Assembly: GCA_020355945.1 (NCBI GenBank)
Contig: CP070627.1
Span: forward strand, 4,910,038 to 4,932,282
Length of the DNA stretch: 22,245 nt
Reading direction: 5' to 3'
Source: Candidatus Aminicenantota bacterium
GTDB lineage: Bacteria; Acidobacteriota; Aminicenantia; UBA2199
The position numbers and the translations under genes were made by a program. Each line of letters starts with the position of its first letter. Within the stretch, counting starts at the first letter, position 1. Positions 1,313-16,949 of the stretch are shown here, one piece after another. Below the pieces are notes generated by a model that did no database searches, was not told where the DNA came from, and saw nothing but the letters and a program-made list of their open reading frames with translations.

Positions 1313-1623
1313 TTGTCAAAGCATCTTTACCCGGGAGAAATAAACCGCTTGAGCATAGGAAAAAACAAAACAAGGTACAAGGTAGGGTAATCATAAAATC
1401 GGCGTCTTTCCCGCCAGTCAAACGGTTATCCGGAGAGCAAAAACGCCTTAATTTTTTGGCTTTTTTACCTAATTATTTTACCAAAACAGAAGACTTTTAT
1501 GCTGTATTTTACCGCACTAAAAATCACCCCAGACCTCATAAAGCCTTGTCTATATTGGATTTCATGGCCATTTTCATAAATATTGCCGAAAAAAATTTTT
1601 TTTATAAAAATCATAAAAATTAG
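1313..1623. other. Non-coding gap after first kinase
   Basis: No convincing gene was found here. The right half is very AT-rich, with A and T runs from about 1590 to 1620 that could serve as an UP element for the promoter at 1624. No clear hairpin with a T-run terminator follows the kinase stop codon. Confidence 0.5.
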
Positions 1624-1652
1624 TTGACAGAATTGGTTTTTTATGCTATATT
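1624..1652 (+). promoter_or_regulatory. Sigma-70 type promoter for the peptide unit
   Basis: TTGACA (1624-1629) and TATATT (1647-1652) are separated by 17 bases, preceded by A/T runs. The expected transcript start is near 1659, leaving about 105 bases of leader before the ATG at 1765. The same box pair and spacing occurs before the kinases at 2602 and 5322. Confidence 0.7.
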
Positions 1653-1764
1653 GACCGTATAATTGAGACCTGCTAAAAATCGGTGTAAATGAATAGATTA
1701 AGATAAATTAATCGAAATCATTTTGTGGTGGTGTCAAAAATTTTATGAAATGCGAGGCGGCTGT

Positions 1765-2004
1765 ATGAAGAAATTAGTATGTGCGGTGCAATGTAGGCGG
1801 AGATGGGCAAAAGGGAGACTCTTTCGCACATTCACGCTGACCTGGTTCTCTTTATTTTTTTTCATACTGCCTGGTAAATTTACTATGAAAGGGGGGGAGG
1901 AAAGCGTTGAAAGCGCCAAATCCCCCCAGGAGCTTGTTCCGAAGCATATTGCCACTGAACTTTTGACATTACCCGAAATAATTAAATTAGGAGAAAAAAA
2001 ATGA
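1765..2004 (+). CDS. Possible small membrane peptide upstream of lanthipeptide precursor
   Basis: This is a 79-codon frame that I do not recognise. The ATG at 1765 is preceded by GAGG at 1754-1757, a better start than the frame's earlier ATG at 1723. The product has a basic N-terminus (MKKLVCAVQCRRRWAKG), one hydrophobic stretch around residues 24-37 (LTWFSLFFFILPG), then a hydrophilic tail ending in LPEIIKLGEKK. It could be a small single-span membrane protein. Its stop overlaps the start of the lanthipeptide-type precursor (ATGA at 2001-2004), so the two may be translationally coupled. It could be an immunity or leader peptide, or a non-coding 5' leader with a chance frame. The overlap and the ribosome site are the only support. 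Confidence 0.4.
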   Translation: MKKLVCAVQCRRRWAKGRLFRTFTLTWFSLFFFILPGKFTMKGGEESVESAKSPQELVPKHIATELLTLPEIIKLGEKK

Positions 2005-2204
2005 AAGCGAAACACCCTCCCAAAAAACTAAAACTCTTTAAAACAACCATTGCTCATTTAACCCATGAGCAATTGACCGCCGCCCGCGGTGGTAGTACCG
2101 GCGGTGGCTGGGAAACAGAGTTATGTGAGCCTGAAAAATCGGGTAACTGTACCGGTGATACAGGTAACTGCCCTGTTACCAACTCGTATACTGTAATATG
2201 CTGA
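2001..2204 (+). CDS. Class I lanthipeptide-type RiPP precursor, orphan
   Basis: This 67-aa peptide looks like the precursor of a ribosomally made, modified natural product. The leader (residues 1-31) carries KKLKLFKTTIAHLTHEQL followed by TAARGG, matching the KLxLxKxTIAxL...GG leader of class I lanthipeptides common in Bacteroidetes and related uncultured phyla. The core (32-67) has four Cys (42, 50, 57, 67) and nine Ser/Thr, including NCTGDTGNC, which fits lanthionine ring formation after dehydration. AGGAG at 1989-1993 lies 7 bases before the ATG. No LanB, LanC, LanM, protease or ABC exporter lies in the window, so modification would have to act in trans, or the locus is a stranded copy. 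The leader call is strong; the final product and its role are unknown. Confidence 0.78.
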   Translation: MKAKHPPKKLKLFKTTIAHLTHEQLTAARGGSTGGGWETELCEPEKSGNCTGDTGNCPVTNSYTVIC

Positions 2205-2564
2205 TGGTTTCCCCATGAGATTGAATTGTTCCTGACAATCGTTATCTTCAATCCTCTTTTACTTTCAGGGGCACCCAAAGTTGAAAATGACGTAGGTCGG
2301 TGGTGTAATCGTTGGACTTCATGGTTTACCCATTAACTTCACCCAGGTTTCACCGACATAAGTGAAGGAATTGCAAAAGACCGAATAAGTAAAAATAGGG
2401 GCCGCTTGCATAGGGTGAGGCGGTGAAGCGAATGCCGCCTGCACTTCAGAGTATAGTACTGTAGATTGCAAAATAATAAGTTTCTTCGATCAATCGAGTA
2501 TTCTCTGGCAGCACCTGGTAAGAGACCACAAAGATAAAAAATTACGATTAAATTCTCTTTCATC
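2205..2564. other. Non-coding gap with one stem-loop and a short minus-strand open frame
   Basis: No gene with a clear ribosome site was found between the lanthipeptide precursor and the next promoter. A stem-loop is at 2415-2444. On the minus strand, 2319-2411 is an open frame of 30 residues from ATG (begins MQAAPIFTYSVF, ends TWVKLMGKP), and the same frame stays open further upstream. It may be a decayed gene end or part of a dispersed repeat. Confidence 0.4.
2415..2444. repeat. Imperfect stem-loop
   Basis: GTGAGGCGG (2415-2423) pairs with CCGCCTGCAC (2435-2444) with one bulged base, closing an 11-base loop. No T-run follows, so it is not a typical terminator. Role unknown. Confidence 0.45.
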
Positions 2565-2593
2565 TTGACGTTTCCATTGATTTGTATTATATT
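2565..2593 (+). promoter_or_regulatory. Promoter of second TPR kinase, likely leaderless transcript
   Basis: TTGACG (2565-2570) and TATATT (2588-2593) are 17 bases apart. Only eight bases separate the -10 box from the ATG at 2602, so transcription should start at or next to the A of the start codon. No Shine-Dalgarno sequence precedes that ATG, in line with a leaderless mRNA. Confidence 0.72.
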
Positions 2594-2601
2594 AGTCTGT
2601 T

Positions 2602-5130
2602 ATGAAAAGCGGTCTGAAAAAATATGTTTGTTGGTATGCATTATTCGTGCTGATTTCACTACTCCTGTTTTCCGAAACAACACTGGAAAAAATTGAAGCC
2701 CGGCTCTCTAAAGCGCAGGGGAAAGAAAAAATCAACCTGTTATTACAATTAACCGGGGGCTATGAGGAAGAGAACCCCCAAAAAGCTCTTAAGTACGGCG
2801 AAGAGGTCCTGGAACTGCTCACGACCTTTCCCGACAAAAAAGCTCGTGTTTCGGTATTAAATAACATGAGTATTGCTTACCGGTTTATTAGAGACTACAA
2901 AAAAGCCAAAGAACACGCCCAAAGCAGCCTGGATATTGCCAGAAAAATTAAGGATAAACCAGGCATTGCCAGGGCGTTGACTTCACTGGGAAGGGCCTGC
3001 CTTTTATTAGAGGAATTTGACCAGGCTCGGCACTATCATTCAGAGAGTGTGAAACTCTATGAAGATTTGCACGATCAACACAACCTGGCCCTTGCATACA
3101 ATTCCATTGCCGGTATCCACTGGAGATTTAGCGAATATGCCACAGCAATGGAATATCTCTACAAATCATTAAAAATATATGAAGATTTGGATCACCAGGA
3201 GAGAATTGGTTCGATAAACAATAATCTCGGGGTTCTTCATATGGATTTGAAAAATTTTGATAAAAGCCTGGAACATTACCAAAAATCCCTCAAAATCAAA
3301 GAAAAACTTAACAATAAAGAAGGAATGCACAAAACGCTTAGTAATATTGGACTGATTTACAGCCACAAATGCTTGTATGATAAGTCACTGAAATATTTTC
3401 AACGAGCACTGAAAATCAGCAAGGAATTGGGGGATAACCCATTTACCTCCACCATCTTTCTCAATATTGGTGATACATACATAAAAATGAAAAACCATCA
3501 ATTGGCACTGGAAAATTATAATAAATCGTTGAAAATCAAAGAGAAACTGAATGAGAGAAGGGGGATGTCCAAAGTACTAATTAATAAAGCATCTGTAAAC
3601 CTGTTGTTGGGTAAACATCAAAAGGCGATTCAACAGGCATTGCAAGGTCTGGATTTAGCCAAACAGATCAAAGTTAAAGCAGTAATCAGGGATGCGTACG
3701 AAGTACTGTCCCGGGCATATGAAGCCATAGGAGACATCCGCAGTGCACTGGACCATCATAAAAAGTTCAAAGAAATAGACGACCAGATATTCGCCGATGA
3801 CACCAACATGAGAATTGCCGGGCTGGAAACCAACTTTCATGTAGAGAGAAAACAAAAAGAAATCGAACTGCTGAGAACAGAACGGGAAAACCAGAGAAGA
3901 ACTCTTTTATTCCTTATCATTTTCGCCCTTTTAATCCTTCTCCTGACCTTTGTCATCCACACCCGCTACCGTTTAAAAGCCAGGGTCACCCGCGCTCTGG
4001 AAAAAGAGATCGATGAACGCAAACTCACCGAACAAAAACTGCGGGAAAGTGAAGAAAAATTCAGGGTCCTGGCGGAAAAATCCGTCGTAGGTATCTGGAT
4101 CGTACAGGATAACTTCATCAAATACGCTAACCCCACGATGTCAAAAACCTTTGGCTATCCCCGGGAAGAGCTGATTGATAAAAGCCCTTTGGAATTGGCT
4201 ATCGAGGAAGATCGTCCCCTGGTGAACGAACAATTGATACAGCGAATGGCCGGGTCCAATGGTATTCAATCTTATGAATTCAAGGGAATCACTAAAAACG
4301 GGGAAATCCTTTACCTGGAGTCTTATGGCGCTTTAACCCTTTACCAGGGTCAGCCTGCTGTCCTGGAATCGATTATTGACATTACTCGCCGTAAAAAAAC
4401 AGAAGCAGAACTCATCAAAAGCAGGAAAATGGAATCCGTGGGTATCCTGGCTGGCGGCATTGCCCATGACTTTAACAATTTACTGGCCATTATCGTTGGC
4501 AATACATCGATGCTAAAGTTAACTCTTGGCAATGGTGACAGCAGGCTCTCTTCTTTCCTGGAAGGGGTTGAACAAGCATCAGCCCAGGCTGCAGACCTGG
4601 CTCAAAAATTCATTACCTTCTCCGAGGGAGGATGGTTAATCCGAAAAAAAGTCGAGCTTCATGATATTTTAAGGGATACGGCTCAGCTTTCCCCGGAAAT
4701 AAATAATATTCCTTGCGAGATCATAATCCCCCCGGACCTGGCTCCCATCTATGCGGATGAACGGCAATTGCGGCAGGTGATAACCAACCTGCTGCTTAAT
4801 GCCTACGAAGCCACTTCCGGCAATTATAAAAAAGTTACCATCAAAGCCCAAAATGTCACCCTGACAGAAGAAAACCAGTTTTCTTTAAAAAACGGGAAAT
4901 ATGTAAAAATATTGGTTATTGATAAAGGCAGGGGAATTCCTCCCCAACTGTTGGAAAAGATTTTTGACCCTTACTTTTCCACCAAGGATACGGTGAGTAA
5001 AAAGGGGTTGGGAATGGGTCTGGCTATTTGTTATTCTATTGTTAAAAAACATGAGGGCCATATCGCCATCGATTCCGAACCGAAAAAAGGCACCACTGTA
5101 GAGGTTTACCTGCCTGCTTTTGAAGGGTAA
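2602..5130 (+). CDS. TPR-PAS sensor histidine kinase
   Basis: 842-aa membrane sensor kinase. Seen in order: a signal or membrane segment (residues 8-25), a long TPR array (about 45-390; the motif recurs with phrases such as ALENYNKSLKIKEKL), a coiled coil, a second membrane segment (about 434-452), another coiled coil, a PAS domain (about 485-605), HisKA with phosphoacceptor His622 in GGIAHDFNN, and HATPase with the N-box NLLLNAYE, DKGRGIPP and KGLGMGLAI. The layout puts the TPRs outside the cytoplasm, where they could bind a peptide or protein signal (inference). There is no receiver domain. The part after the second membrane segment is nearly identical to both neighbouring kinases while the TPRs differ more, as expected after tandem duplication. 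ATG 2602 is set by the adjacent promoter and by matching the membrane segment of the next copy. Confidence 0.93.
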   Translation: MKSGLKKYVCWYALFVLISLLLFSETTLEKIEARLSKAQGKEKINLLLQLTGGYEEENPQKALKYGEEVLELLTTFPDKKARVSVLNNMSIAYRFIRDYKKAKEHAQSSLDIARKIKDKPGIARALTSLGRACLLLEEFDQARHYHSESVKLYEDLHDQHNLALAYNSIAGIHWRFSEYATAMEYLYKSLKIYEDLDHQERIGSINNNLGVLHMDLKNFDKSLEHYQKSLKIKEKLNNKEGMHKTLSNIGLIYSHKCLYDKSLKYFQRALKISKELGDNPFTSTIFLNIGDTYIKMKNHQLALENYNKSLKIKEKLNERRGMSKVLINKASVNLLLGKHQKAIQQALQGLDLAKQIKVKAVIRDAYEVLSRAYEAIGDIRSALDHHKKFKEIDDQIFADDTNMRIAGLETNFHVERKQKEIELLRTERENQRRTLLFLIIFALLILLLTFVIHTRYRLKARVTRALEKEIDERKLTEQKLRESEEKFRVLAEKSVVGIWIVQDNFIKYANPTMSKTFGYPREELIDKSPLELAIEEDRPLVNEQLIQRMAGSNGIQSYEFKGITKNGEILYLESYGALTLYQGQPAVLESIIDITRRKKTEAELIKSRKMESVGILAGGIAHDFNNLLAIIVGNTSMLKLTLGNGDSRLSSFLEGVEQASAQAADLAQKFITFSEGGWLIRKKVELHDILRDTAQLSPEINNIPCEIIIPPDLAPIYADERQLRQVITNLLLNAYEATSGNYKKVTIKAQNVTLTEENQFSLKNGKYVKILVIDKGRGIPPQLLEKIFDPYFSTKDTVSKKGLGMGLAICYSIVKKHEGHIAIDSEPKKGTTVEVYLPAFEG

Positions 5131-5321: not shown

Positions 5322-7838
5322 CTGAAAAAATATGTTTGTGGTTTTGCATTACTGTTCTTTTTTTCAGTGTTCCTGGTTAATGGGACAACACTGGAAAAAA
5401 TCGCGGCCCAACTCCCTGGAGCGCGGGGGAAAGACAAAATTACCCTATTGTCGCAATTAACAAAGGCTTACCTGAAAGAAAACCCCAAACAGGCCCTGGA
5501 GTATGGCAAACAGGCCCTGGAACTGCTGGGGAACTTCCCTGACAAAAAACTTCGTGCAGCCCTAATGACTCACATGAGTCATGCTTACAGGTTTATCGGA
5601 GATCAAGAAACCGCTGAAGAATACGCACGAAACAGCCTGGCTGCGGCCAGACAAATCAACGATAAGTCAGGGGCTGCTGCGGCCCTGCGCTCACTGGGGC
5701 AAGTTAGCGTCATGACCGGAAAATTGGACTCAGCCAGGGACTATTTTTTTAAATCTTCCCAACTTTATAAAGAATTGAACGATCAAGCCAACCTGGCCCT
5801 GTCATTCAATTGCATCGCCGGCGTTCACTATGATAAAGGCGAATATGTGACCACATTAAAGTATTTATTCAAAGCATTGAAAATCTATGAAGGGTTGAAT
5901 CACCAATGGGGAATTGGTAGCATGAACGTCAATATCGGGGTTATCTATTGGGAATTGAAAAATTTTGATAAAAGCCTGGCATATTCCCTGGAATCCCTTA
6001 AAATTCTTGAAGGGTTAGACGATAAAATGAGCCTGGTCCTAAATCTCAACAATATCGGCCGTATTTACAGTCTCAAACGCAGGTATGATAAATGCATGTA
6101 TTATCTTAAAAAAGCAATGAAAATCAGTAAGGAATTGGGGAATAAGTGGTTAATATCCGCAGTCCTTAACAGCGTTGGTTACACGTTCAAAGAACTGGAA
6201 AATGACAGGCTGGCGCTGGAGTACTTTAATCGAGCACTGGATATAAGAGAGGAATTAAACGATAAAGTAGGTATAGCAGATATTTCGATTAATATCGCCT
6301 CTGTATATCAACGGCTGGGCCGATATAAAGAAGCGATTCAACATGCCCATAAAGGGCTGGAGATCGCCAGGCAAACCCATGTAAAAGCAGAAATCAGTGA
6401 TGCCTGCCAGGTGTTGTCCGCAGTCTATGAAGCCGCCGGAGACCTGGAAAAAGCGCTGGACTATTATAAAAAGTACAAAAAAGTAAACGACACTATTTTC
6501 AATGAAAACACCACCAAAAGAATCACTGATTTGCAGACCCATTTTGAAATAGAGAGAAGGCAGCGAGAGATTGAGCTGCTGAGAAAGGACCGGGAAAACC
6601 AAAAAAATATTCGCAATTTCCTTATACTTTTTGCCTGTTTGATCCTCCTGGTGGCCTTTGTCATCTTTGCCCGCTTCCGCTTAAAAGCCAGGGCCACCCG
6701 GGCATTGGCAAAGGAGATCGAGGCGCGCAAATTCACCGAACAAAAACTGGGGGAAAGTGAAAAAAAATTCAGGGTATTGGCGGAAAAATCCGTTGTTGGC
6801 ATCCGGATCATACAGGACCACGTCATCAAATACGCCAACCCCACAGCGACAAACATCTTCGGGTATCCCCTGGAAGAAATGATTGATAAAAGTCCTTTGG
6901 AATTGGTGATCGAGGAAGATCGACCCCTGGTAAGCCAACACTTGAAGCAGCGAATGGCCAGGACCGGTGATATTTTACCTTATGAATTCAAGGGAATCAC
7001 TAAAAATGGAGAAATCCTTCACCTGGAGTCTTATGGTTCTTTAATCCTTTACCAGGCTCGGCCTGCTGTCCTGGAATCGGTTATTGACATTACTCGCCGC
7101 AAAAAAACAGAGGCGGAACTCATCAAGAGCAGGAAAATGGAATCCGTGGGGATATTGGTCGGGGGCATTGCCCATGATTTTAATAATCTATTGGCGGTTA
7201 TTGTTGGCAATACATCGATGTTAAAATTAAGCCTGGGCAATAGAGGTCCCAGGATTTCCGCATTACTGGGAAAAGTGGAACAGGCATCAGCCCGGGCCGC
7301 GGAATTGGCTCAAAAGTTCATTACTTTTTCCAATGGTGGATGGGGCATACGAAAAAAAGTCAAATTTTCCGATATTTTAAAAAATAACCACCACTTTTCC
7401 CCTGGAGTAGGGGATATACTTTGTGATATTTCAATTCCCCCGGACCTGGCTCCCATTTATGCGGATGAACGGCATTTGCGGCAGGTGATGACCAACCTGC
7501 TGCTTAATGCCCACGAAGCCAACTCCGGCAACAATGAAAAAATTATCATCAAAGCCCAAAATATCACCCTGGAAGAAGAAAACCAATTTGCTTTAAAAAA
7601 CGGGGAATATGTAAAAGTATTAGTTATTGATAAGGGTAGGGGAATTCCTCCCCAACTGTTGGAAAAGATATTTGACCCTTATTTTTCCACCAAGGATACA
7701 GTGAGTAAAAAGGGGTTGGGAATGGGTCTGGCTATTTGTTATTCTATTGTCAAAAAACATGATGGTCATATTGCCATCAGTTCCAAACCGCAAAAAGGCA
7801 CCACTGTAGAGATTTACCTGCCTGTTTATAATGAATGA
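5322..7838 (+). CDS. TPR-PAS sensor histidine kinase with apparent CTG start
   Basis: Third copy of the kinase family: 838 aa if read from CTG 5322. The layout is as in the copy before: membrane segment (residues 6-21), TPR array (about 40-385), second membrane segment (about 430-448), PAS, HisKA with His618 in GGIAHDFNN, and HATPase with DKGRGIPP and KGLGMGLAI. The first conventional start, GTG 5367, would remove the N-terminal membrane segment that is conserved in the paralog (KKYVC then hydrophobic residues, then TTLEKI). A GGAGG at 5311-5315 sits 6 bases before CTG 5322, and that CTG aligns with Leu5 of the paralog. The position matching the paralog's ATG is CGG (5310-5312). So either CTG is used, or the start has been lost and a shorter protein is made. 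No receiver domain. The kinase call is firm; the start is uncertain. Confidence 0.88.
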   Translation: MKKYVCGFALLFFFSVFLVNGTTLEKIAAQLPGARGKDKITLLSQLTKAYLKENPKQALEYGKQALELLGNFPDKKLRAALMTHMSHAYRFIGDQETAEEYARNSLAAARQINDKSGAAAALRSLGQVSVMTGKLDSARDYFFKSSQLYKELNDQANLALSFNCIAGVHYDKGEYVTTLKYLFKALKIYEGLNHQWGIGSMNVNIGVIYWELKNFDKSLAYSLESLKILEGLDDKMSLVLNLNNIGRIYSLKRRYDKCMYYLKKAMKISKELGNKWLISAVLNSVGYTFKELENDRLALEYFNRALDIREELNDKVGIADISINIASVYQRLGRYKEAIQHAHKGLEIARQTHVKAEISDACQVLSAVYEAAGDLEKALDYYKKYKKVNDTIFNENTTKRITDLQTHFEIERRQREIELLRKDRENQKNIRNFLILFACLILLVAFVIFARFRLKARATRALAKEIEARKFTEQKLGESEKKFRVLAEKSVVGIRIIQDHVIKYANPTATNIFGYPLEEMIDKSPLELVIEEDRPLVSQHLKQRMARTGDILPYEFKGITKNGEILHLESYGSLILYQARPAVLESVIDITRRKKTEAELIKSRKMESVGILVGGIAHDFNNLLAVIVGNTSMLKLSLGNRGPRISALLGKVEQASARAAELAQKFITFSNGGWGIRKKVKFSDILKNNHHFSPGVGDILCDISIPPDLAPIYADERHLRQVMTNLLLNAHEANSGNNEKIIIKAQNITLEEENQFALKNGEYVKVLVIDKGRGIPPQLLEKIFDPYFSTKDTVSKKGLGMGLAICYSIVKKHDGHIAISSKPQKGTTVEIYLPVYNE

Positions 7839-7922
7839 CAGTTCCTCCTGATGCCGGGGCCTCACCCGGAGACGAATGAAAAACATCCTCTTAATATCTC
7901 AATTCTATTGTAGATGCTTCAC

Positions 7923-7940
7923 GGCTTGATTTATCAAGCC
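7923..7940. repeat. Perfect hairpin GGCTTGA-TTTA-TCAAGCC
   Basis: Seven-base perfect stem with a 4-base loop, 33 bases before a second hairpin that shares the TTGAT...ATCAA core. It may be part of a dispersed palindromic element or act in 3'-end formation of the converging genes. Confidence 0.6.
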
Positions 7941-7972
7941 CAGGCCTGTAGCCGATTCATCCACGCCTTTAT

Positions 7973-7994
7973 GGGGTTTGATGAATCAAACCCC
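7973..7994. repeat. Perfect hairpin GGGGTTTGAT-GA-ATCAAACCCC
   Basis: Ten-base perfect inverted repeat with two central bases. No strong T-run follows on either strand, so a classical terminator is not clear. It has the same core as the hairpin at 7923-7940. Confidence 0.65.
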
Positions 7995-8092
7995 TACGAC
8001 AGAATTTATGCATATTTTTATTCGCGTCCCTTCATGCTTCAACGTGCCTTCGCGGCTTATCTTCATAGTAACTGCAAGGTAACAAGCACAAA

Positions 8093-9019
8093 TTATGCGC
8101 TTATTTTTTTTATTTTGACCTTTTTCAAATTGATTTGTCCCAATTGGTGTTCGTAGGCCTGGGTAATGGTTATAATATTTCCAGGTTGCAGTCCCCATAA
8201 GGTGCAGCAGTAGGCATCCAGGGCCACCCGGTCCATACCTGCCACCACCTGGTTCGGTTGATGCAGTTTACCCGGACCAAAGGGACCGTTGGTAATAATA
8301 AATTCCGTGGCGTCCACGATACATAACGCAGGGGTGATCACGGTATTCAGGTCAGCAATGCATTGGTCCAAATGGCGAATGTCATTAATGTCTGTCTTCC
8401 AATTGGGTTTATGAAACGTCCGATTATTCATCGGAGAATTTAAACCCATTAAGTTCTTTAACGTACCGGTAAATTTATTCCCGGCATGGTCTTTAGTGAT
8501 GGGAATATCAATCAACAGGTCATAATTAAAAAACTCCTTCATGATGCGTGCTTCTTTAAGGGCTTTTCCTTTGGGTACCGGTACGGGTTTAAAGAGTGAT
8601 TCGTCGCGTCGGTCTACAATGACCAGTTTAGCGTCTTCTGCATCCACTGCTTTTTTCAAACCGGTATTCTCCCAATTTTCTAAGGGCAGCCAACTGATGC
8701 ACGTCACTTCTTTGGCACCGGCTTGTTTACACATGCGGATGGCAGCGGCAGCGATCTGAGGTTTGGTATAAGCCCCGGGATTATTTCTTTGGGGATTGGC
8801 CAGGATGGCAACTTTTGAATTTTTAGGCACAAAGTGTTTCATCCCACCCAGTTGTTCCACGGCTTTAACCGTGTTTTTGAAATAATCCTCGCCTTCCACC
8901 GCTGAGATATCGATTTTTTCTTTGCCAAAACCGAGAATAAGACCTGCGCCCACTAAAGAACCCACGCCAATGGCGGTGCTTTCTTTGATAAAAGAACGTC
9001 GACTGATTTTTTTAGCCAT
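8093..9019 (-). CDS. Tat-signal DUF362 family protein
   Basis: 308-aa protein of the DUF362 family, whose biochemical role is not settled. The N-terminus has a twin-arginine signal (SRRSFIKES at residues 5-13, followed by a hydrophobic stretch to about residue 30), so it should be exported folded, which often goes with a metal or redox cofactor (inference). DUF362-like parts seen include VAILANPQRNNPGAYT, LLIDIPITKDHAG and LKNLMGLNSP. The Cys-rich ferredoxin tail found in some DUF362 proteins is absent. ATG 9019 is preceded by a good AGGAGG (in the minus-strand reading GGAAAAAGGAGGTAATTT). The gene has its own promoter and lies 89 bases after the propeller kinase gene on the same strand. Confidence 0.85.
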   Translation of the reverse strand: MAKKISRRSFIKESTAIGVGSLVGAGLILGFGKEKIDISAVEGEDYFKNTVKAVEQLGGMKHFVPKNSKVAILANPQRNNPGAYTKPQIAAAAIRMCKQAGAKEVTCISWLPLENWENTGLKKAVDAEDAKLVIVDRRDESLFKPVPVPKGKALKEARIMKEFFNYDLLIDIPITKDHAGNKFTGTLKNLMGLNSPMNNRTFHKPNWKTDINDIRHLDQCIADLNTVITPALCIVDATEFIITNGPFGPGKLHQPNQVVAGMDRVALDAYCCTLWGLQPGNIITITQAYEHQLGQINLKKVKIKKISA

Positions 9020-9058
9020 AAATTACCTCCTTTTTCCGGATAATTCATTAACAATTCT

Positions 9059-9087
9059 ATTTTAGAAAAAATAGGTTTTTATTTCAA
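9059..9087 (-). promoter_or_regulatory. Promoter of DUF362 gene
   Basis: Read on the minus strand, TTGAAA (9087-9082) and TAAAAT (9064-9059) lie 17 bases apart, about 39 bases before the start codon at 9019. Transcription should start near 9052, giving a leader of about 30 bases that contains the AGGAGG site. Confidence 0.6.
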
Positions 9088-9108
9088 TAGAAATGGGTAT
9101 TTTTTTAA

Positions 9109-12100
9109 CTATGATTCTTCCGGCTCTTCAGTAATGGGGAGATGGATAAAAAAGGTAGTACCTTCATTGACTTTACTTTGAAAATAGAGTTTCCCCTGGT
9201 GTCTCTCTACAATAATGTTGTATGAAAAGGGCAGCCCCTGGCCGGTTCCATGACCTGCTTTCTTGGTGGTAAAAAAGGGGGTGTAAATTTTATCCTTTAT
9301 CTCATCGGGAATCCCGATTCCGTTATCGGAAATCTCAACAATCAATTCATTGCCTTTGTGTTTTGTTGACACTTTGATTAATCCGTGTTTACCGGTTTCC
9401 GCGATGGCATCGGCGGCATTAATCAGCAGGTTCAGGAATACCTGGTTTAATTCTCCCATGCTGCAGTAGATGGGAGGCAAATTAGGTGCATAATCCGTTT
9501 GCAAGTCCGCCACTTTTTTGATCCGGTTATGCGCCACCACTAATGTGGATTTCAACATTTCATTCAAATCCGATTTCTCGCATACTTCTCTCCCGATATG
9601 GGAAAACTCATTCATCGATTGAACGATATGCGATACCCTGGACACGCCATTAATAATATGTTCCATGGCTGGGGGAATTTCTTCCACAAAGAAATTAAAA
9701 TCTTTCTCCTGGAGGCCCTGGTTTAATCTTTCTATATCAATGTTTTTCCCTGATTCTGCCGCGCTTTTTACCGAATCCTTGATTACAACACAAGATTCCA
9801 TCAATGTGCCAAAGGTTTCCAGCAAAAATCGCACATTATCCCCGATATACTGGAGGGGGGAGCGAATTTCATGGGCGATTCCAGCGGCCATTTGTCCCAG
9901 GGCTTCCAGCTTTTGAGAAAGAAGCATCCGCATTTGTTCCTTCTTCTGGGGGGTGATATCTTCCGCCAGGAAAAGAAACCCAAACTTCTTACCACTTTTA
10001 TCCAGGATAGGATTGATATTGGCCAGCAGTTGTTTTGATTCACTATCTTTTTTTAAATCAACTTGAATCTCAATATTATTGGAAGGCTCATCCCGGTGGA
10101 GCCCCTTTTCCATGATTTCATCCAGCTTATCCGCAGGAATATATTCTTTTAAAATGTCGACAAATAACTGTTCTTTCACCCGGGCTTTGGGAATTTCAAA
10201 AAATTTCTCCGCTGTATCGTTCCACTGGGATATTTTCCCATTGATATCCACGGTGATAAATATTGAAGAGATAGCAGCGATCAATTTTTCATTCTCAGCG
10301 CTGCGGAATTCGGCAATATCTCTTGATTTTTTCATTTCATCCCTGGAGTGCTTTAACAGTTTCTGAACTCGTTCCTGCTCGGCCAGTCTTTTCCTTAACC
10401 GTTTGGTGCGGTAATAATAACCCCCCAATAACATCGATATAATAGTTAACCCCAGGAGTACCAGGAACCACCACCGCTCCCAGAAAGGCGGGGAAATATA
10501 AATCCTGAGGGAAGTTTCATCCCATAAATTATCGTTATTACTGGCTTTAACCCTAAAAACATAATGCCCCGGGGTAAGATGGGAATAAATAGCAATTCGT
10601 CGATTGCCCACATTATTCCAATCTTTGTCCAGCCCTTCCATTTTATAGGCATACCGGTTGCTCTCCGGCGCTGCATAATGCAGCCCTACATAGTCAAAGG
10701 AAAGTATGTTATGCTTATGGGATAATTTAATTTCACCGGTGGTGGAAATGTGTTTGGTAAGGATTATCTCTCCATCTACCTCTTCACCGATGGGGACAGA
10801 CTTATTGGCAATTTTAAAATCCGTGATCACAACGCTGGGGGGGGAGGGATTGTCAGTGATACTGTCCGGGAAAAAAGCATTAAATCCATTGATACCACCA
10901 AAAAGCATCTCCCCGCTTTTGCTCTTCCAGTAACCGCCGTAATAAAACTCATTACCCTGGAGTCCATCACTGGAATCATAGTTATTAAATACTCTTGTTT
11001 TGGGATTAAACTTTGATAATCCGTTATATGTACTGAGCCAGAGATTACCGTGATCATCTTCCAGTATCCCAAAAATCACATCATCAGGCAGTCCGATCTT
11101 CATACTGTAATGGCTAAAGGTATCTCTTTTTCGATCATATTTATTCAACCCGCTATTGGTTCCGATCCAGAGTGTCCCGGAACGGTCTTCATAAATAAAA
11201 TTGATTACATCGTTGCTTAAACCATTGGGATTCCCCGGGTCTGCCAGGTAACGGGTAAATCTCTCTGTTTCGTGATCAAATTTATTAAGGCCCTGGATAG
11301 TTCCAACCCACAACACACCGTAACTATCTGCAAAAATTGAAACCGTTAGATTATGACTTAAACTATAGGGGTCACCAGCAGCATTTTGGTAACGTTTAAA
11401 TGTCTTATTTCCCTTATTAAATTGATTTAATCCGTCAATTGTTCCGATCCATAGAAATCCCCATTGGTCTTCACAAATTGCCAGGATTTGATTGTGACTC
11501 AAGCTGTTGGGATTCTTCGCATCTGACAGGTAACGGGTAAATTTCATTTTTTCACGATCCAATTGATTCAAACCTTCAAGGGTTCCAATCCAGAACTCAC
11601 CTGACCGATCTTCATAAATGGCCAGGATACGGTTGTTACTCAAACTGTAAGGGTCTTCGGCAATATTTTTGTAAGAAGTAAAGGTAAATGTTTCATTCTT
11701 TCGCTCCCCTATATTTAACCCGTCAAAGGTTCCGATCCATAACACACCGGAACCATCCTCATAAATGGCCGTGACCATGTTGTTACTCAAACTATTGGGA
11801 TCATCAGGAACATGATAGTAATGATTAAATTTCTTCTTTTCTTTGTTGAATCTATTGATCCCCCCAAATTCGGTTCCGATCCAGAGCACCCCGGATCGGT
11901 CTTCATAAATTGACCTGATTTTATTAGCACTTAAGCTGCCGGGGTCTGTTGGGTCTGCCAGGTAACGGGTAAATTCTTGTTCTTTTCGATCAAAGCGGTT
12001 AAGCCCGCCTGAGGTTCCAACCCACAGCATACCATCCCTGTCTAAATAAATCTTACTGACATCATTGCTGCTTAAGCTTTTGGGGTTTCCGGGATCAGCC

Positions 12101-12945
12101 AGGAAATGGGTAAAGGTCTCTGTTTTGGGGTCAAACTTATTCAACCCTCCGCCAGAGGTGCCAATCCATAATATACCTGCCTGTTCCTGGTCTTCAAGGA
12201 TTGTTACAACGGAATTGTCACTCAAACTGTGGGGATCCGCGGGATCGGCCAGGTAATGGGTAAACCTCCCTGTCTTTGGTGAAAACTTGTTCAGACCGCC
12301 CTCAAGGGTTCCAAGCCATAATATACCTGCATTATCCCGGTCTTCATAAATTGTTCGCACTTTATTGTTGCTCAAGCTGTTGGCATCCCCGGGAACGGTC
12401 TGGTAATGGGTAAATGTCTCAGTCTCTGGGTCAAACTTATTCAGTCCTCCACCCCAGGTTCCAATCCATAATATACCTTCCTGATCTTCAAGGATGGAAA
12501 AGACGAAATTGTTATTTATACTTTTGGGATTTCCAGTGTCGGTTTGATAGCGGGTAAAGGTTTCCGTCTTTGGGTCAAATTTATTCACTCCCCCGCCAAA
12601 GGTTCCAATCCACAAGGCTCCATATTGGTCTTCAATGATGGAAAGGACAGTATTGTTACTCAAGCTGTTGGGATTCTCCCGTTGGTTCCAATAGATTTTA
12701 AAATCGTATCCGTCATACTTATTCAAACCGTTATCTGTTCCAAACCATAAAAAACCCTTCCTGTCCTGGCAAATACAATATATGAGGCCATTGGAAAGTC
12801 CATGGTCCACCGTGATATGTTGGAATTCAATATGCTCCTCCTGGGAGCAAACATGAAATGAGGTGTTTAAAAGTACGCATAAAACGAAAACAGTAATTTT
12901 AACCATGGACATCATAACTGTTGTTTTAAGATTTCTTTTTATCAT
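9109..12945 (-). CDS. Two-component propeller sensor histidine kinase (14 blades)
   Basis: 1278-aa membrane sensor kinase. The ATG at 12945 gives a signal segment (residues 15-31). Then come 13 clear propeller blades with the motif IYEDxxGxLWIGTxxGLNxFD, plus a weaker fourteenth (LFGGINGFNAF), so two seven-bladed propellers are likely. Next is a Y_Y_Y domain (RYAYKMEGLDKDW), a membrane segment (FLVLLGLTIISMLLGGYYY), a coiled coil, a PAS domain, HisKA with GQMAAGIAHEIRSPLQ, and HATPase with NLLINAADA, SDNGIGIPD and GTGQGLPF. This is the sensor part of the hybrid systems known for polysaccharide or other ligand sensing in Bacteroides, but the receiver and AraC domains are absent. The longer frame from TTG 12981 is rejected because that TTG forms the -35 box of a promoter that ends just before ATG 12945. 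Confidence 0.93.
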   Translation of the reverse strand: MIKRNLKTTVMMSMVKITVFVLCVLLNTSFHVCSQEEHIEFQHITVDHGLSNGLIYCICQDRKGFLWFGTDNGLNKYDGYDFKIYWNQRENPNSLSNNTVLSIIEDQYGALWIGTFGGGVNKFDPKTETFTRYQTDTGNPKSINNNFVFSILEDQEGILWIGTWGGGLNKFDPETETFTHYQTVPGDANSLSNNKVRTIYEDRDNAGILWLGTLEGGLNKFSPKTGRFTHYLADPADPHSLSDNSVVTILEDQEQAGILWIGTSGGGLNKFDPKTETFTHFLADPGNPKSLSSNDVSKIYLDRDGMLWVGTSGGLNRFDRKEQEFTRYLADPTDPGSLSANKIRSIYEDRSGVLWIGTEFGGINRFNKEKKKFNHYYHVPDDPNSLSNNMVTAIYEDGSGVLWIGTFDGLNIGERKNETFTFTSYKNIAEDPYSLSNNRILAIYEDRSGEFWIGTLEGLNQLDREKMKFTRYLSDAKNPNSLSHNQILAICEDQWGFLWIGTIDGLNQFNKGNKTFKRYQNAAGDPYSLSHNLTVSIFADSYGVLWVGTIQGLNKFDHETERFTRYLADPGNPNGLSNDVINFIYEDRSGTLWIGTNSGLNKYDRKRDTFSHYSMKIGLPDDVIFGILEDDHGNLWLSTYNGLSKFNPKTRVFNNYDSSDGLQGNEFYYGGYWKSKSGEMLFGGINGFNAFFPDSITDNPSPPSVVITDFKIANKSVPIGEEVDGEIILTKHISTTGEIKLSHKHNILSFDYVGLHYAAPESNRYAYKMEGLDKDWNNVGNRRIAIYSHLTPGHYVFRVKASNNDNLWDETSLRIYISPPFWERWWFLVLLGLTIISMLLGGYYYRTKRLRKRLAEQERVQKLLKHSRDEMKKSRDIAEFRSAENEKLIAAISSIFITVDINGKISQWNDTAEKFFEIPKARVKEQLFVDILKEYIPADKLDEIMEKGLHRDEPSNNIEIQVDLKKDSESKQLLANINPILDKSGKKFGFLFLAEDITPQKKEQMRMLLSQKLEALGQMAAGIAHEIRSPLQYIGDNVRFLLETFGTLMESCVVIKDSVKSAAESGKNIDIERLNQGLQEKDFNFFVEEIPPAMEHIINGVSRVSHIVQSMNEFSHIGREVCEKSDLNEMLKSTLVVAHNRIKKVADLQTDYAPNLPPIYCSMGELNQVFLNLLINAADAIAETGKHGLIKVSTKHKGNELIVEISDNGIGIPDEIKDKIYTPFFTTKKAGHGTGQGLPFSYNIIVERHQGKLYFQSKVNEGTTFFIHLPITEEPEES
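10890..12830 (-). repeat. Tandem propeller repeats inside kinase gene
   Basis: Degenerate tandem units of about 145-150 bases, each coding one blade (motif LWIGTxGGLNKFDPxTxxFTxY). The units nearest the N-terminus are the most alike, for instance around 12130-12600, suggesting unit duplication or conversion within the gene. Confidence 0.75.
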
Positions 12946-12952
12946 GAAATAA

Positions 12953-12981
12953 AGTATACAAAAAAAGCTTCTGCTTCGCAA
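12953..12981 (-). promoter_or_regulatory. Promoter of propeller kinase, likely leaderless transcript
   Basis: On the minus strand, TTGCGA (12981-12976) and TATACT (12958-12953) are 17 bases apart. Seven bases later comes ATG 12945, so the transcript should begin at or beside the start codon. No Shine-Dalgarno sequence is seen, matching the layout of the kinase at 2602. Confidence 0.6.
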
Positions 12982-12988
12982 GACCTAT

Positions 12989-15202
12989 TTACAGCACTTT
13001 AAAAAAATCAAATGCTCGTATTAACTCAGCCGTTTCCCCGGTATTAAAATTCCTTTTTAAATCACAGTATTCTTTATCAAATAACGGTCCGGGAAAAATA
13101 CATTTTGTACATTCTGCCTGTTTATTACAATTCATGCAGCCTCTTTTATTTTCGGTTGCTCGATGGATATTTTTTAGATTTTCTAAAATTCCAGGAAAAG
13201 GCATGCCAACTTTCCCAACAGCGTTTCCATGCCAACAGGTTTTAACATTATTATCAGCATCAATAATGACTGTCCCTGATGTCCTGCAGTTAGCCGAACT
13301 CTTCTCCCATCTGCACAAGCTGCCAATATAAGGAAAAATTGGTGTATCAACTAAATCATTAAATGTGTTCTCTTTATTGGAGAGGCGGACCAATAATTGG
13401 TGCAATTGGAGTACATCCTCTTTTTCCCTGTCAATGCATATGGTTTGTAACCGGTTAACTTGAGCTGGCGAGGATGAAAGACCGGACCCGGTTTTGACCA
13501 AATCTATCGTTACACCGCACTGCTTCCCTAAAAAATGCATCCTCAAAGGCGTAAGGGTAATCACACCATCTTCTATGTCGGTTTGATAATACCCCACATG
13601 AGATGTGGTTGGTGACATATATTTTCTCAGGGCATGCTTATTATCCTCGTGATACTGCTTTGCCCGGTCAAAATTTGAGTAAATTTGTATTATCGGCCCA
13701 TTAACAGCCAAATATTTTTTTAACCATAATATAAGTTCTCCTGTAATCATATCAGCACATAGAATGATTTTGTTAAAATAGTTAAAGTTGGTCTTTTTTG
13801 ATGGCGATAATGCTAAAGTCTTGATGTTGACTTTGTCTTCATTGACGGTATCTACTCCCATATTTGATTTGGGAGCCAATGGGATTTTACAGGTATCATA
13901 GGTGTGTATTGTCCTGGAATGAACCTGGTTATCATACATTAACAGCTTCATATCGTATTTTTCATAATTGTGAAAAATAGGTGTACCGGGATATATTTTG
14001 AAGATATTGTGTGCATAATAGTCTATTTTTTCTTCAAGAGAGTGAATAAGATTCACAGTTTGTTGGCCCTCTTCCAGGGTCTCCCCGGGCAGTCCGAGCA
14101 TTATACTGGAGAATATATGCTCTATTCCTATTTTTTTTGCATATGACGTATATTTTTTAAATTTCTCGATAAATTCCTTTTCCTTTTCAAAATTGTCGTC
14201 GGTTTTGGTGTTGGGATGCTGTACTTTGCCAATCTTTCTCAAAATGTGCGGGACCGCACTTTCCAAAGAGAATCCGATGGATATAAAACCGGCTTCTTTC
14301 ATTGTATCTATCAATTCTTCATTCACTTTGTCACATCTGGTGACAGAGACTAACGGGAGTTTGATCTTATTTTCAATGATTCGATGGCAAATTTCCAGCG
14401 CCCTCTCAGGCATTAAGGTAAAGGCATCATCGTATATGATAACATTATTCCCATTATTATGGTCAAATTTCTTTGAGATGTAATCCAATTCCCGGATCAC
14501 TCGATCGATCGAATGTGTGGCAATGATGCGCTTTGACATGACAGCACAATTACAATAGACGCAGTGTTGATTACATCCTCTTGCCGTTATTATTCCCGGC
14601 TTGGCTGAATCCAAAACTCCACTGAGATAAGGAGACGGGTATTTATCCAAAAAATCAGGAATTTTTCCATTTTCTAATAGAATATTTCTCCCGGGATTTT
14701 CCTGGATGTGATCCGCTGTACGAAAAGTAATGCCCTTAATTTTTTCAAAAAATGCCAGGGCCTTTTTTAAATCAAAATTCACATTATCCATTACGGAAAG
14801 TAATTCCAGGCAGGTCTCTTCCCCTTCATGTCTAACACATATGTCAACAAAATCGTTATTTTTTAAAATTGCTTCCGCTTGAACAGAAGCTGTCGGCCCT
14901 CCGAAGAGAATAATAATGTTGGGGTCTGCTTCTTTTAGCGCATGAGCAATTAATTGACATAAACAATAATTGCTGTCATAAACGGTGAAGCCAACAACTT
15001 TGGGTTTCTTTGATAATATTTGAGCAGCACATTCGCTGACATTAATCGGTTCATTGGTTAAAAACGGCCTGGCAATCAATCCCTTTTGAACCAGGTACGA
15101 GATGGTATAGGCTGAGCCCAGGCACATATTAAAATGTGCAGAGACATATTCATTTGAAGATGAAGCGGCAGGAGGAAATACAAAAATAATGTGAGGATTC
15201 AC
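12989..15202 (-). CDS. B12-binding radical SAM protein with SPASM-like C-terminus, likely peptide maturase
   Basis: 737 aa. The N-terminal part (about 1-135) resembles the Rossmann-like B12-binding domain of radical SAM enzymes, though I do not see a DxHxxG cobalt-ligand motif. The radical SAM barrel has the 4Fe-4S motif CNQHCVYC (Cys210, 214, 217) and later GFSLESAV and MLGLPGETLEEG. The C-terminal 110 residues hold a cysteine cluster (CRWEKSSANC, then KTCWH, then CMNCNKQAECTKC, then a last Cys in KEYC), which looks like a SPASM domain binding auxiliary Fe-S clusters. SPASM proteins mostly modify ribosomal peptides, and B12 types often methylate or rearrange unactivated carbons (family knowledge). 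The gene starts with GTG, 50 bases after a 70-aa small protein in the same transcript, the probable substrate (inference). The exact reaction cannot be told. Confidence 0.85.
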   Translation of the reverse strand: MNPHIIFVFPPAASSSNEYVSAHFNMCLGSAYTISYLVQKGLIARPFLTNEPINVSECAAQILSKKPKVVGFTVYDSNYCLCQLIAHALKEADPNIIILFGGPTASVQAEAILKNNDFVDICVRHEGEETCLELLSVMDNVNFDLKKALAFFEKIKGITFRTADHIQENPGRNILLENGKIPDFLDKYPSPYLSGVLDSAKPGIITARGCNQHCVYCNCAVMSKRIIATHSIDRVIRELDYISKKFDHNNGNNVIIYDDAFTLMPERALEICHRIIENKIKLPLVSVTRCDKVNEELIDTMKEAGFISIGFSLESAVPHILRKIGKVQHPNTKTDDNFEKEKEFIEKFKKYTSYAKKIGIEHIFSSIMLGLPGETLEEGQQTVNLIHSLEEKIDYYAHNIFKIYPGTPIFHNYEKYDMKLLMYDNQVHSRTIHTYDTCKIPLAPKSNMGVDTVNEDKVNIKTLALSPSKKTNFNYFNKIILCADMITGELILWLKKYLAVNGPIIQIYSNFDRAKQYHEDNKHALRKYMSPTTSHVGYYQTDIEDGVITLTPLRMHFLGKQCGVTIDLVKTGSGLSSSPAQVNRLQTICIDREKEDVLQLHQLLVRLSNKENTFNDLVDTPIFPYIGSLCRWEKSSANCRTSGTVIIDADNNVKTCWHGNAVGKVGMPFPGILENLKNIHRATENKRGCMNCNKQAECTKCIFPGPLFDKEYCDLKRNFNTGETAELIRAFDFFKVL

Positions 15203-15252
15203 CTTTCAACCTGAAGTTCCCTATTGCAAGATAACAATATTTGCAACTGTTT

Positions 15253-15465
15253 TTAAAAAGATGGAATGATCATAGTTACAGCGAATTTAATATCGCCAGG
15301 GTCTAAACCCTCTTTTTTGATAGCAGCCTTAAAGTGCTCCTGGAGTGTTTCCCCACGATTTCCTTTTTGGTATGCAACGTTGATTTCCTCTAAAACCCTG
15401 GCGGCTTTTTCCTCTCCCAACCGCTCTTCTAATCTCTCTTTTACTGTTACTTGTCCGATATCCAT
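15253..15465 (-). CDS. Small protein, candidate RiPP precursor of the adjacent radical SAM enzyme
   Basis: 70 aa from ATG 15465. I chose this start because AAGGAGG lies 5 bases upstream of it; an ATG at 15489 would add eight residues but has no ribosome site. I do not recognise the family. The first 50 or so residues look helical and charged (VTVKERLEERLGEEKAARVL), like the globular leaders of Nif11- or nitrile-hydratase-type precursors. The last 12 residues (IKFAVTMIIPSF) are hydrophobic, with Thr, Ser, Pro and two Phe and no Cys, like a short core for a radical SAM enzyme. It is the first gene after a strong promoter and is followed after 50 bases by the B12 radical SAM/SPASM gene. It could instead be an accessory or binding protein. 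The gene is well supported; the precursor role is inference. Confidence 0.72.
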   Translation of the reverse strand: MDIGQVTVKERLEERLGEEKAARVLEEINVAYQKGNRGETLQEHFKAAIKKEGLDPGDIKFAVTMIIPSF

Positions 15466-15480
15466 GATATCCTCCTTTTG

Positions 15481-15501
15481 GGTTGACATTTTTTATCAAC
15501 C
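15481..15501 (-). promoter_or_regulatory. Small stem-loop just before the ribosome site of the 70-aa gene
   Basis: GGTTGA and TCAACC form a 6-base stem around a 9-base loop, immediately upstream of the AAGGAGG of the 70-aa gene. It may tune translation; the stem is short. Confidence 0.35.
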
Positions 15502-15575
15502 GATTTTTCTTTATTTTCAATCCCCCTTATGGGAATTTTAATGGCAATTGATATTAAATCAATCGCTCATATTCC

Positions 15576-15605
15576 AGTATAATTCAAACTAATATCGAAT
15601 GTCAA
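15576..15605 (-). promoter_or_regulatory. Promoter of small protein/radical SAM unit
   Basis: On the minus strand, TTGACA (15605-15600) and TATACT (15581-15576) lie 18 bases apart, near consensus. The start should be near 15569, leaving about 100 bases of leader before ATG 15465. A perfect palindrome overlaps the -35 box. Confidence 0.65.
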
Positions 15606-15623
15606 TAGGTAAAAATACCTATT
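15604..15623. promoter_or_regulatory. Candidate operator: AATAGGTA-AAAA-TACCTATT
   Basis: Perfect 8-base inverted repeat with a 4-base centre, touching the -35 box of the promoter at 15576-15605. Its place fits a repressor or activator site. On the plus strand it is followed by a T-run, so it could also form a weak terminator, but no plus-strand gene leads into it. Confidence 0.45.
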
Positions 15624-15655
15624 TTTTAATTTTCTTTAACTCTGTTGTGAAAAAA

Positions 15656-15723
15656 GCCCACGAATTACACGAATTACACGAAAAAAAACAAAAAATTCGT
15701 GTGAATTCGTGTAATTCGTGGGC
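15656..15723. terminator. Long bidirectional hairpin terminator
   Basis: Left arm 15656-15682 and right arm 15696-15723 pair over 27 base pairs with one bulge around a 13-base loop. Each arm carries the tandem word CGAATTACA. Six A bases lie before the left arm and a run of T after the right, so the stem ends in a U-run on both strands. It lies 36 bases past the thiI stop and should end the rplU-thiI transcript. The sequence resembles a class of dispersed palindromes made of CACGAATTA words seen in many genomes. Confidence 0.85.
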
Positions 15724-15758
15724 TCTTTTTTTTCATCGTCTCCGGGTGAAGCTCCGCA

Positions 15759-16949
15759 TCATGACCTTAATTCCCCTCTCAGCGAAATCTCGTATACCTC
15801 CGCTTCCTGCAAACATTTATCCAGGTGCTCCTCCAATTGTACCTCTTTATCAAATTTTTCCAAATAGGAAGCGGAAGGCCTTATCACCGGGTGCCTGGGA
15901 GCAAAAAGACTGCACGCATCATCATGAGGGATAACCGAAATATCATGGGTGCCGATCTTTTTGGCCAGCTCAATGATCTCTATCTTATTATAACCTAATA
16001 ACGGTCTGAAAATAGGCAGCGGTGATACGCTGTCCAGTAGTGAAATATTACCAATAGTCTGGCTGGATACTTGACCTAGAGCATCACCGGTTAAGAGCGC
16101 TTCGGCTTTTACCCGTTGGGCCAATAACGCGGCACACTGCAGCATGGCATTTCGAAACAAAAGCGTCCGATAACCCTCTTTACAGTGTTTGGATATCAAT
16201 TGTTGCACCTGGCCGAAACCTGCAATGTATAACCGGGAACCCCGCTGAAATCGACCTAAAATTTGCACCAATTTCAAAACTTTATCCTTTACCTCATCCC
16301 CCACAAAAGGATAAGCGTAAAAAAAGATAAAGGTCTGACGGCACCCTCGCTTGGACATGAGAAAACTGGCTACCGGCGAATCAAAACCACCGGAAATCAA
16401 TGCCACCAGGTGACCACTGGTGCCCACGGGTAACCCCCCCATCCCCAACAGTTTGCGGGTGGATACATAAATATTCTTTTCCAAAATCCGTATCTCCACC
16501 ACCAATCCAGGATGTCTTACATCAACGGTTAACCCCGGGAATTCCTTGAGTACCTGGGCACCAATTTCTTTGCATACCTCCATGCTGGTCAAAGGAAACC
16601 CTTTATAACTCCGCCGTGTTTCCACCTTGAAGGTTGGCGGCAATCCCTCCAATCGCTGCAGTTCTTCCTTTACAGCAGGAAAGATGCTGTCAAACTTTGC
16701 AGCTACCTGCCGCGCCGGCATCAACGAATGAATCCCCGGTACTTTCAACAACGCCCGGATGATTTCTTCCGAAAAGGGTACCCGCGATTGGACCACAAAC
16801 CGCTGCTCCTCGTTGACACAAGTAAATCCGGATGAATGATAAGCTGCTAAAAGCTCTCGAATATGCCCCCGCATCGCTTTAAAATATAGGGGACGATTCT
16901 TTCCCTTTAACCACAACTCATCAACATTAATTACTATTGTATTATACAT
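15759..16949 (-). CDS. thiI: tRNA 4-thiouridine synthase ThiI, rhodanese-less
   Basis: 396 aa. ThiI adenylates U8 of tRNA and puts sulfur on it to give 4-thiouridine; it may also serve thiazole synthesis. Seen in order: an N-terminal ferredoxin-like part (LWLKGKNR), a THUMP domain (about 60-165), and the PP-loop AANH domain with ISGGFDSP at residues 185-192. The conserved catalytic-type Cys is Cys346 in DDACSLFAPRHP. The protein stops after this domain, so the rhodanese domain of the E. coli enzyme is absent. In Bacillus subtilis such short ThiI takes sulfur from a dedicated cysteine desulfurase, NifZ; here a desulfurase gene lies directly upstream. A GGAGG (16959-16955) lies 5 bases before the ATG. 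It is the last gene of the operon. Confidence 0.93.
   Translation of the reverse strand: MYNTIVINVDELWLKGKNRPLYFKAMRGHIRELLAAYHSSGFTCVNEEQRFVVQSRVPFSEEIIRALLKVPGIHSLMPARQVAAKFDSIFPAVKEELQRLEGLPPTFKVETRRSYKGFPLTSMEVCKEIGAQVLKEFPGLTVDVRHPGLVVEIRILEKNIYVSTRKLLGMGGLPVGTSGHLVALISGGFDSPVASFLMSKRGCRQTFIFFYAYPFVGDEVKDKVLKLVQILGRFQRGSRLYIAGFGQVQQLISKHCKEGYRTLLFRNAMLQCAALLAQRVKAEALLTGDALGQVSSQTIGNISLLDSVSPLPIFRPLLGYNKIEIIELAKKIGTHDISVIPHDDACSLFAPRHPVIRPSASYLEKFDKEVQLEEHLDKCLQEAEVYEISLRGELRS

Follow-up and report, generated by a model that had tools for sequence, protein, structure and literature searches.

A minimal RiPP cassette, consisting of a precursor peptide and the B12-binding radical SAM maturase that would C-methylate its tail, is the most probable reading (about 0.7) of a gene pair on the reverse strand of the window, the 22,245-nucleotide stretch of a Candidatus Aminicenantota genome analysed here (Table 1). 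A preliminary description had proposed a possible RiPP precursor beside its modifying enzyme, and this proposal is supported by the conservation of the pair and by a leader/core pattern in the peptide. The short gene carries the strong ribosome-binding site and the near-consensus upstream promoter that had been described for it, with TTGACA-18-TATACT scoring 11/12 as the single top scorer among 15 sites in 12800-15900. The scan counted sites of at least 9/12, of which shuffled sequence gives 10.4 (sd 3.4), and the promoter is predicted to function on the basis of this consensus match. The longest ORF reading opens at ATG 15489 and encodes 78 aa with the same end (15253); ATG 15465 (70 aa) is the better start because of the AAGGAGG at 15477-15471 and because 15 of the 20 homologs, excluding the window's own copy, are 70-73 aa in length, with the remaining five (77-90 aa) having N-terminal extensions. 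These 20 homologs were detected at E <= 1.4e-14, so the peptide is not a chance ORF, and a wider profile gathered 46 proteins. The peptide stop is separated from GTG 15202 of the enzyme by 50 bp on the same strand. An inverted repeat at 15650-15729 (26-nt arms, 96% complementary, 28 nt apart) separates the promoter from the upstream gene, of which it is perhaps the terminator.

Table 1. Coordinates of the features of the gene pair and its surroundings in the window
Feature	Position	Strand	Basis
Candidate 70-aa precursor peptide gene	15253..15465	-	20 further homologs; homologous peptide beside enzyme at 14/15 loci
Leader-like part, residues 1-58	15292..15465	-	mean column entropy 0.75 bits (21 sequences); helical in Asgard fusion model
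Putative core, residues 59-70, IKFAVTMIIPSF	15256..15291	-	mean column entropy 1.63 bits (21 sequences)
Ribosome-binding site AAGGAGG	15471..15477	-	sequence, 5 bases upstream of ATG 15465
Predicted sigma-70-like promoter TTGACA-18-TATACT	15576..15605	-	11/12 consensus match; 110 bases upstream of peptide gene
B12-binding/radical SAM enzyme, 737 aa, GTG start 15202	12989..15202	-	ORF, Pfam domains, relatives, fold
B12-binding domain, residues 56-134	14801..15037	-	PF02310, 45.2 bits, cut-off 32.1
Radical SAM domain, residues 204-386, CxxxCxxC at 210-217	14045..14593	-	PF04055, 65.8 bits, cut-off 29.5
C-terminal eight-Cys region, SPASM-like, residues 630-713	13064..13315	-	each Cys in 91-93/93 relatives
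Reg_prop/Y_Y_Y/PAS histidine kinase, perhaps co-transcribed; unit membership putative	9109..12981	-	Pfam

The enzyme was examined for its domains, conserved cysteines and fold. Its B12-like domain, CNQHCVYC motif and C-terminal Cys cluster had been recognised in the preliminary description and were borne out, with PF02310 and PF04055 both scoring above their cut-offs and the cysteines being conserved: (i) Cys 210, 214, and 217 of CNQHCVYC are present in 93/93 aligned relatives; and (ii) the eight C-terminal Cys (630, 639, 656, 689, 692, 698, 701, and 713) are each present in 91-93 of the 93. Of 7998 scored candidates, 1007 were relatives of the enzyme at E <= 1e-10, and the GTG start fits the close relatives, which open V/M-N-x-H-I-I-F. 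The structure model (pLDDT 92) has a core fold shared with solved B12 radical SAM enzymes, which are mostly C-methyltransferases, though the non-methylating AprD4 and also OxsB match it about as well; these fold matches cover residues 1-558, with the C-terminal Cys region outside the alignments. No NCBIfam model scored above its cut-off on the window enzyme. The earlier assignment to the SPASM enzymes holds as far as the C-terminal Cys cluster is concerned, but membership is unproven on the sequence and reduces to a resemblance, as neither a SPASM profile nor, over residues 1-558, a SPASM structure was matched. The spacing from 689 to 701 is CX2CX5CX2C (91-93/93 for each Cys), where the canonical SPASM spacing is CX2CX5CX3C. 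Elsewhere in the family, a second enzyme from a Candidatus Aminicenantes bacterium (P0044) is 63% identical to that of the window, and at locus L002 (positions 3570-3959) the family enzyme, which two putative precursor copies precede, has only half of the eight Cys of the C-terminal region, with 689, 692, 698, and 713 (window numbering) missing.

The Cys region also bears on an alternative in which the same precursor and maturase are paired but the tail is cross-linked, cyclised or rearranged, with the Cys region holding auxiliary Fe-S clusters in the style of SPASM maturases. Such chemistry would be consistent with the near-complete conservation of the eight Cys, with the presence of AprD4 among the closest folds, and with the C-terminal piece of the L005 enzyme, which weakly matches the radical SAM peptide maturase model TIGR04148 (15.1 bits against a cut-off of 300, E 0.0099). 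However, the C-terminal pieces of the window and L008 enzymes gave no TIGR04148 match, no SPASM profile was matched, and the closest folds are mostly methyltransferases; we consider this alternative unlikely. Between C-methylation and epimerisation, the solved folds closest to the model favour the former.

The distribution of the pair was determined across genomes. A contig scan with the window enzyme alone as query retrieved no relative, while an alignment (A2) led to 38 loci, of which L001-L012 (38-54% identity) make up the family and L013-L038 (21-38% identity, partly short matches) served as distant controls. The 15 family loci with DNA (the window, L001-L012, L057, and L058) include Aminicenantes, Candidatus Hebobacterum (Armatimonadota in tree labels), Bacteroidales, and Asgard archaea. 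At all but one of these loci (14/15), a peptide with the same leader lies next to the enzyme; where the peptide comes first, the gap to the first possible start is 31-166 bp (15 cases measured). Two peptides are followed by one enzyme at L002, three peptides accompany three enzymes at L003, and the enzyme of L011 is cut off at the contig end. Among Asgard genomes, the enzyme (E <= 1e-100) was found in 5/227 and the peptide (E <= 1e-3) in 5/225, and these are the same five (G004, G005, G006, G521, and G522). Of 142 Aminicenantia genomes, three carry the enzyme and two the peptide; the third genome (G130) has a distant enzyme relative alone (484 bits). At this locus (L056), an unrelated 47-aa ORF (7639-7794) lies 76 bp upstream of the enzyme (7871-10066) and is possibly another precursor type. 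The family is rare: the order sample of G007 has it in 1/295 genomes and the phylum sample of G002 in 2/396. The co-occurrence that had been proposed as a check on the pair was thus observed, both side by side at 14/15 loci and in the identical Asgard genomes, and the opposite outcome, a peptide found mostly without the enzyme, was not what these Asgard and Aminicenantia counts gave.

Profile searches gave similar results. A window-clade profile (21 sequences including the window) was run against 11,317 ORFs in 538,827 bases and ranked the window and 11 other non-Asgard linked peptides first (E <= 8.6e-5), with Asgard peptides matched weakly (0.084, 0.49, 3.1, and 15) and L005 not among the matches listed. 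Conversely, the window peptide was detected both by an Asgard-only profile (7.3e-5, with L009 at 7.2e-6) and by a profile of four Bacteroidales sequences alone (8e-11). At the 26 distant-enzyme loci (L013-L038), nothing was found below E = 1 with the family profile or the three one-clade profiles. When the longest contig was used as a proxy, 9 of the 21 window-clade peptides paired with an enzyme among the best 120 of 1007; the other 12 comprise seven on contigs of <= 2,153 bases and five (3,504 to 60,997 bases) with no partner among the best 120 of 1007. Judged from these sequence comparisons, the pair is an evolutionary unit, and the two-gene unit first noticed in the window is confirmed. 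In a maximum likelihood tree of 42 enzyme rows, the window grouped with P0023, P0026, P0031, and P0037 (99/96), and the Asgard enzymes (100/99), the Bacteroidales enzymes (100/100), and the two L010 enzymes (100/100) each formed a group; the root is a midpoint for drawing, and no direction of transfer is read from it. No relative was found among viral contigs, plasmids searched with the peptide and phages searched with the enzyme gave no match, and PHROGs matched neither protein; these collections thus give no indication that the pair came from a phage or a mobile element.

The peptide alignments were used to separate a leader-like part from a putative core, with the boundary after residue 58 chosen by conservation. 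A conserved body with a drifting C-terminus had been named beforehand as an outcome that would speak against a precursor. The first half of this was found, the body being better conserved than the tail (Table 1), but the tail retains fixed positions: in the window clade (n=21), Pro68 is present in 21/21, position 66 is Val in 17 and Ile in 4, and Phe61 is found in 18/21, with positions 62, 63, 65, 69, and 70 variable. This entropy pattern, together with the fixed tail positions, is as would be expected of a leader plus a core. The core had been described as free of Cys, a description from which the clade departs in detail, with 3 of the 21 peptides ending in Cys. In Asgard archaea, the 21 aligned peptides end in L-M-x-x-W-x-T-V-G, with the Trp and the last Gly each in 21/21; this count leaves aside five rows (P0161, P0162, and L005, ending in MSFVIVG; L058, ending in MGFITVG; and P0166, with an odd C-terminus), of which P0161, P0162, L005, and L058 have a VG end without Trp. 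A model of a fused Asgard peptide-enzyme protein places peptide helices at 8-18, 20-35, 40-54, 57-61, and 65-79, with block pLDDT of 84-94 at peptide residues 11-70 and <50 at 74-122 (tail end and linker), and speaks neither for nor against leader binding. Matches of the peptide to FliG_N, HPD, RelB, eIF-6, and designed helical repeats were weak and were ascribed to its helical charged composition; the best of them (E 1.5e-8) was to a designed helical protein, with no single stretch passing alone. Leader models of the NHLP or Nif11 type were matched neither in NCBIfam at E <= 10 (the window peptide and 9 family peptides) nor in Pfam at E <= 0.1 (29 family peptides). None of the family or structure libraries searched names the peptide, and the NCBIfam and Pfam searches agree with the earlier statement that no named class has this pair.

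Locus L010, from Desulfobacteraceae, differs from the others. Its family enzyme (1451-3742) shares a 4-bp overlap with a different 70-aa ORF, the product of which has a distinct N-terminal part ending LPPEVLDKIAGAG followed by a Val/Thr/Ile-rich tail. The placement of a sister enzyme at another kind of short peptide speaks for peptide chemistry, subject to the reservation that the NHLP-related leader match of this peptide is sub-threshold (TIGR04509, 14.1 bits, cut-off 34). Three other B12/radical SAM ORFs surround the family enzyme, and the locus as a whole (L010:2-6481, four B12/radical SAM ORFs around the 70-aa peptide) looks proteusin-type. This arrangement is relevant to a further alternative, in which the small protein would assist the enzyme as an adaptor, a carrier or a regulatory subunit, and the actual substrate would be a small molecule or some other protein. 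The better conservation of the peptide body, the lack of a peptidase or exporter among the annotated neighbours of the pair, and the close fold of MgmA, a protein methylase, are consistent with a helper; against it stand the clade-specific fixed motifs at the extreme C-terminus of the peptide, the two peptide copies per enzyme at L002, and the different peptide of the sister enzyme at L010, which make it improbable.

For the precursor-maturase reading, we propose that the 70-aa product is a precursor with a folded helical leader (approximately residues 1-58) that would be recognised by the enzyme, and that the hydrophobic tail IKFAVTMIIPSF would be the substrate for C-methylation. This chemistry is inferred from the enzyme fold and from the peptide precedents of PoyC, ApyD, and Mmp10. 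PoyC methylates the C-beta of Val in a RiPP precursor (PMC5682303), ApyD, the B12 radical SAM enzyme of aminopyruvatide, methylates the C-beta of Tyr to give beta-methyltyrosine (PMC10635010), and the Mmp10-peptide structure depicts a peptide in the grip of an enzyme of the B12 radical SAM type (PMC8828468; further background in PMC13331322 and PMC8326336). In the window clade, methylation would be likely at position 66 or 67, conserved tail positions that directly precede the invariant Pro68; in most Asgard peptides, the likely sites would be the Thr-Val or the invariant Trp within LMxxWxTVG. The probable role of the C-terminal Cys region is to bind auxiliary Fe-S centres or to shape the peptide channel. 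The leader may be removed after modification; no dedicated peptidase or exporter was present among the annotated neighbours of the pair.

Neighbouring genes were surveyed for partners of the pair. In the window, the kinase ORF 9109-12981 opens 7 bp past the enzyme stop if the listed TTG 12981 is its start, and Reg_prop kinases adjoin the pair both here and at L001. A TPR-type protein lies downstream of the enzyme at 5/5 Asgard loci (Pfam run on two); it has 681-711 aa except in L007, where the contig end leaves 451 aa. At 3/4 Bacteroidales loci (L008, L009, and L012; Pfam on L008 and L012), a related TPR-type protein lies upstream of the peptide. The modified peptide could on this account be a signal or ligand for the adjoining TPR proteins or Reg_prop histidine kinases. 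However, Asgard TPR relatives (E <= 1e-60) are abundant (85/225 genomes), close ones occur in G525 and G516, both of which are without the pair in the Asgard genome scan, and Reg_prop motif matches number 91 in G001 and 147 in G002 among 150 candidates scored in each. Furthermore, neither a TPR nor a Reg_prop neighbour was found among those annotated at L002, L003, L004, and L010, and L011 showed no neighbour of the TPR type. Because both families are abundant in such genomes, the sensor link is kept as a rival only, and as one of low probability. The broader proposal is likewise doubtful that the system forms its own RiPP-like class in several bacterial phyla and Asgard archaea. In such a class, small folded carrier peptides with a leader of an unnamed family would be modified at their C-terminus by a B12 radical SAM enzyme to which an auxiliary iron-sulfur region is fused, the product being a ligand, in or near the cell, for adjoining TPR/propeller sensors. 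Apart from the pair, the window has a 67-aa ORF (2001-2204, + strand) matching the class I lanthipeptide leader NF038153 (30.4 bits, cut-off 22), a second RiPP-like precursor located between two histidine kinase genes. Three similar kinase ORFs occur in a row on the + strand (2-1312, 2602-5130, and 5367-7838); Pfam assigns TPR, PAS, and HATPase domains to the middle one, and the other two are similar by eye.

RiPPs and B12 radical SAM enzymes are known in kind, and none of the libraries searched has a name for the leader family or the architecture; from its sequences, the precursor-maturase pair looks like a new RiPP variant. Nothing on this pair was found in the literature, which is weak evidence as open-licence papers were covered, nor in the available text of PMC9062424. 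For Asgardarchaeota, 36 clusters have been predicted, and in the archaeal phyla covered RiPP, NRPS, and PKS are the prevailing types (PMC12016038, the single related source found). The available part of that source gives predicted cluster counts only, and the present analysis points to a specific precursor-maturase pair in Asgard archaea, with a leader family usable for finding more such pairs.

When compared with known systems, the window enzyme resembles ApyD (NF050148) in its B12-binding and radical SAM core, and ApyD acts on a RiPP precursor. NF050148 was the best NCBIfam match (116.7 bits vs a cut-off of 750, residues 57-415 only); however, ApyD is itself described as RRE-containing and is encoded together with a P450, an MNIO, an RRE protein, and a methyltransferase (PMC10635010), whereas here peptide and enzyme stand alone. 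The PoyB/PoyC-type and bottromycin C-methyltransferases and the RiPP maturation radical SAM C-methyltransferases of TIGR03975 (71.8 bits for the window enzyme, cut-off 281.85) are likewise B12 radical SAM enzymes beside RiPP precursors. The PoyB/PoyC-type and bottromycin enzymes have Cx7Cx2C (PMC5682303) where the window enzyme has Cx3Cx2C, and, as a further difference, the leader of the window peptide is unrelated to NHLP or Nif11 models. The solved methyltransferases CysS, TokK, TsrM, and MgmA are 16-21% identical to the window enzyme and are without the eight-Cys C-terminal region as far as the matches show, this region being outside the alignments. Like the SPASM-type peptide maturases, of which TIGR04148 is an example, the window enzyme has a multi-Cys region behind the radical SAM domain; it differs from them in matching no SPASM profile, in its CX2CX5CX2C spacing, and in its B12 domain, which to our knowledge these maturases do not have.
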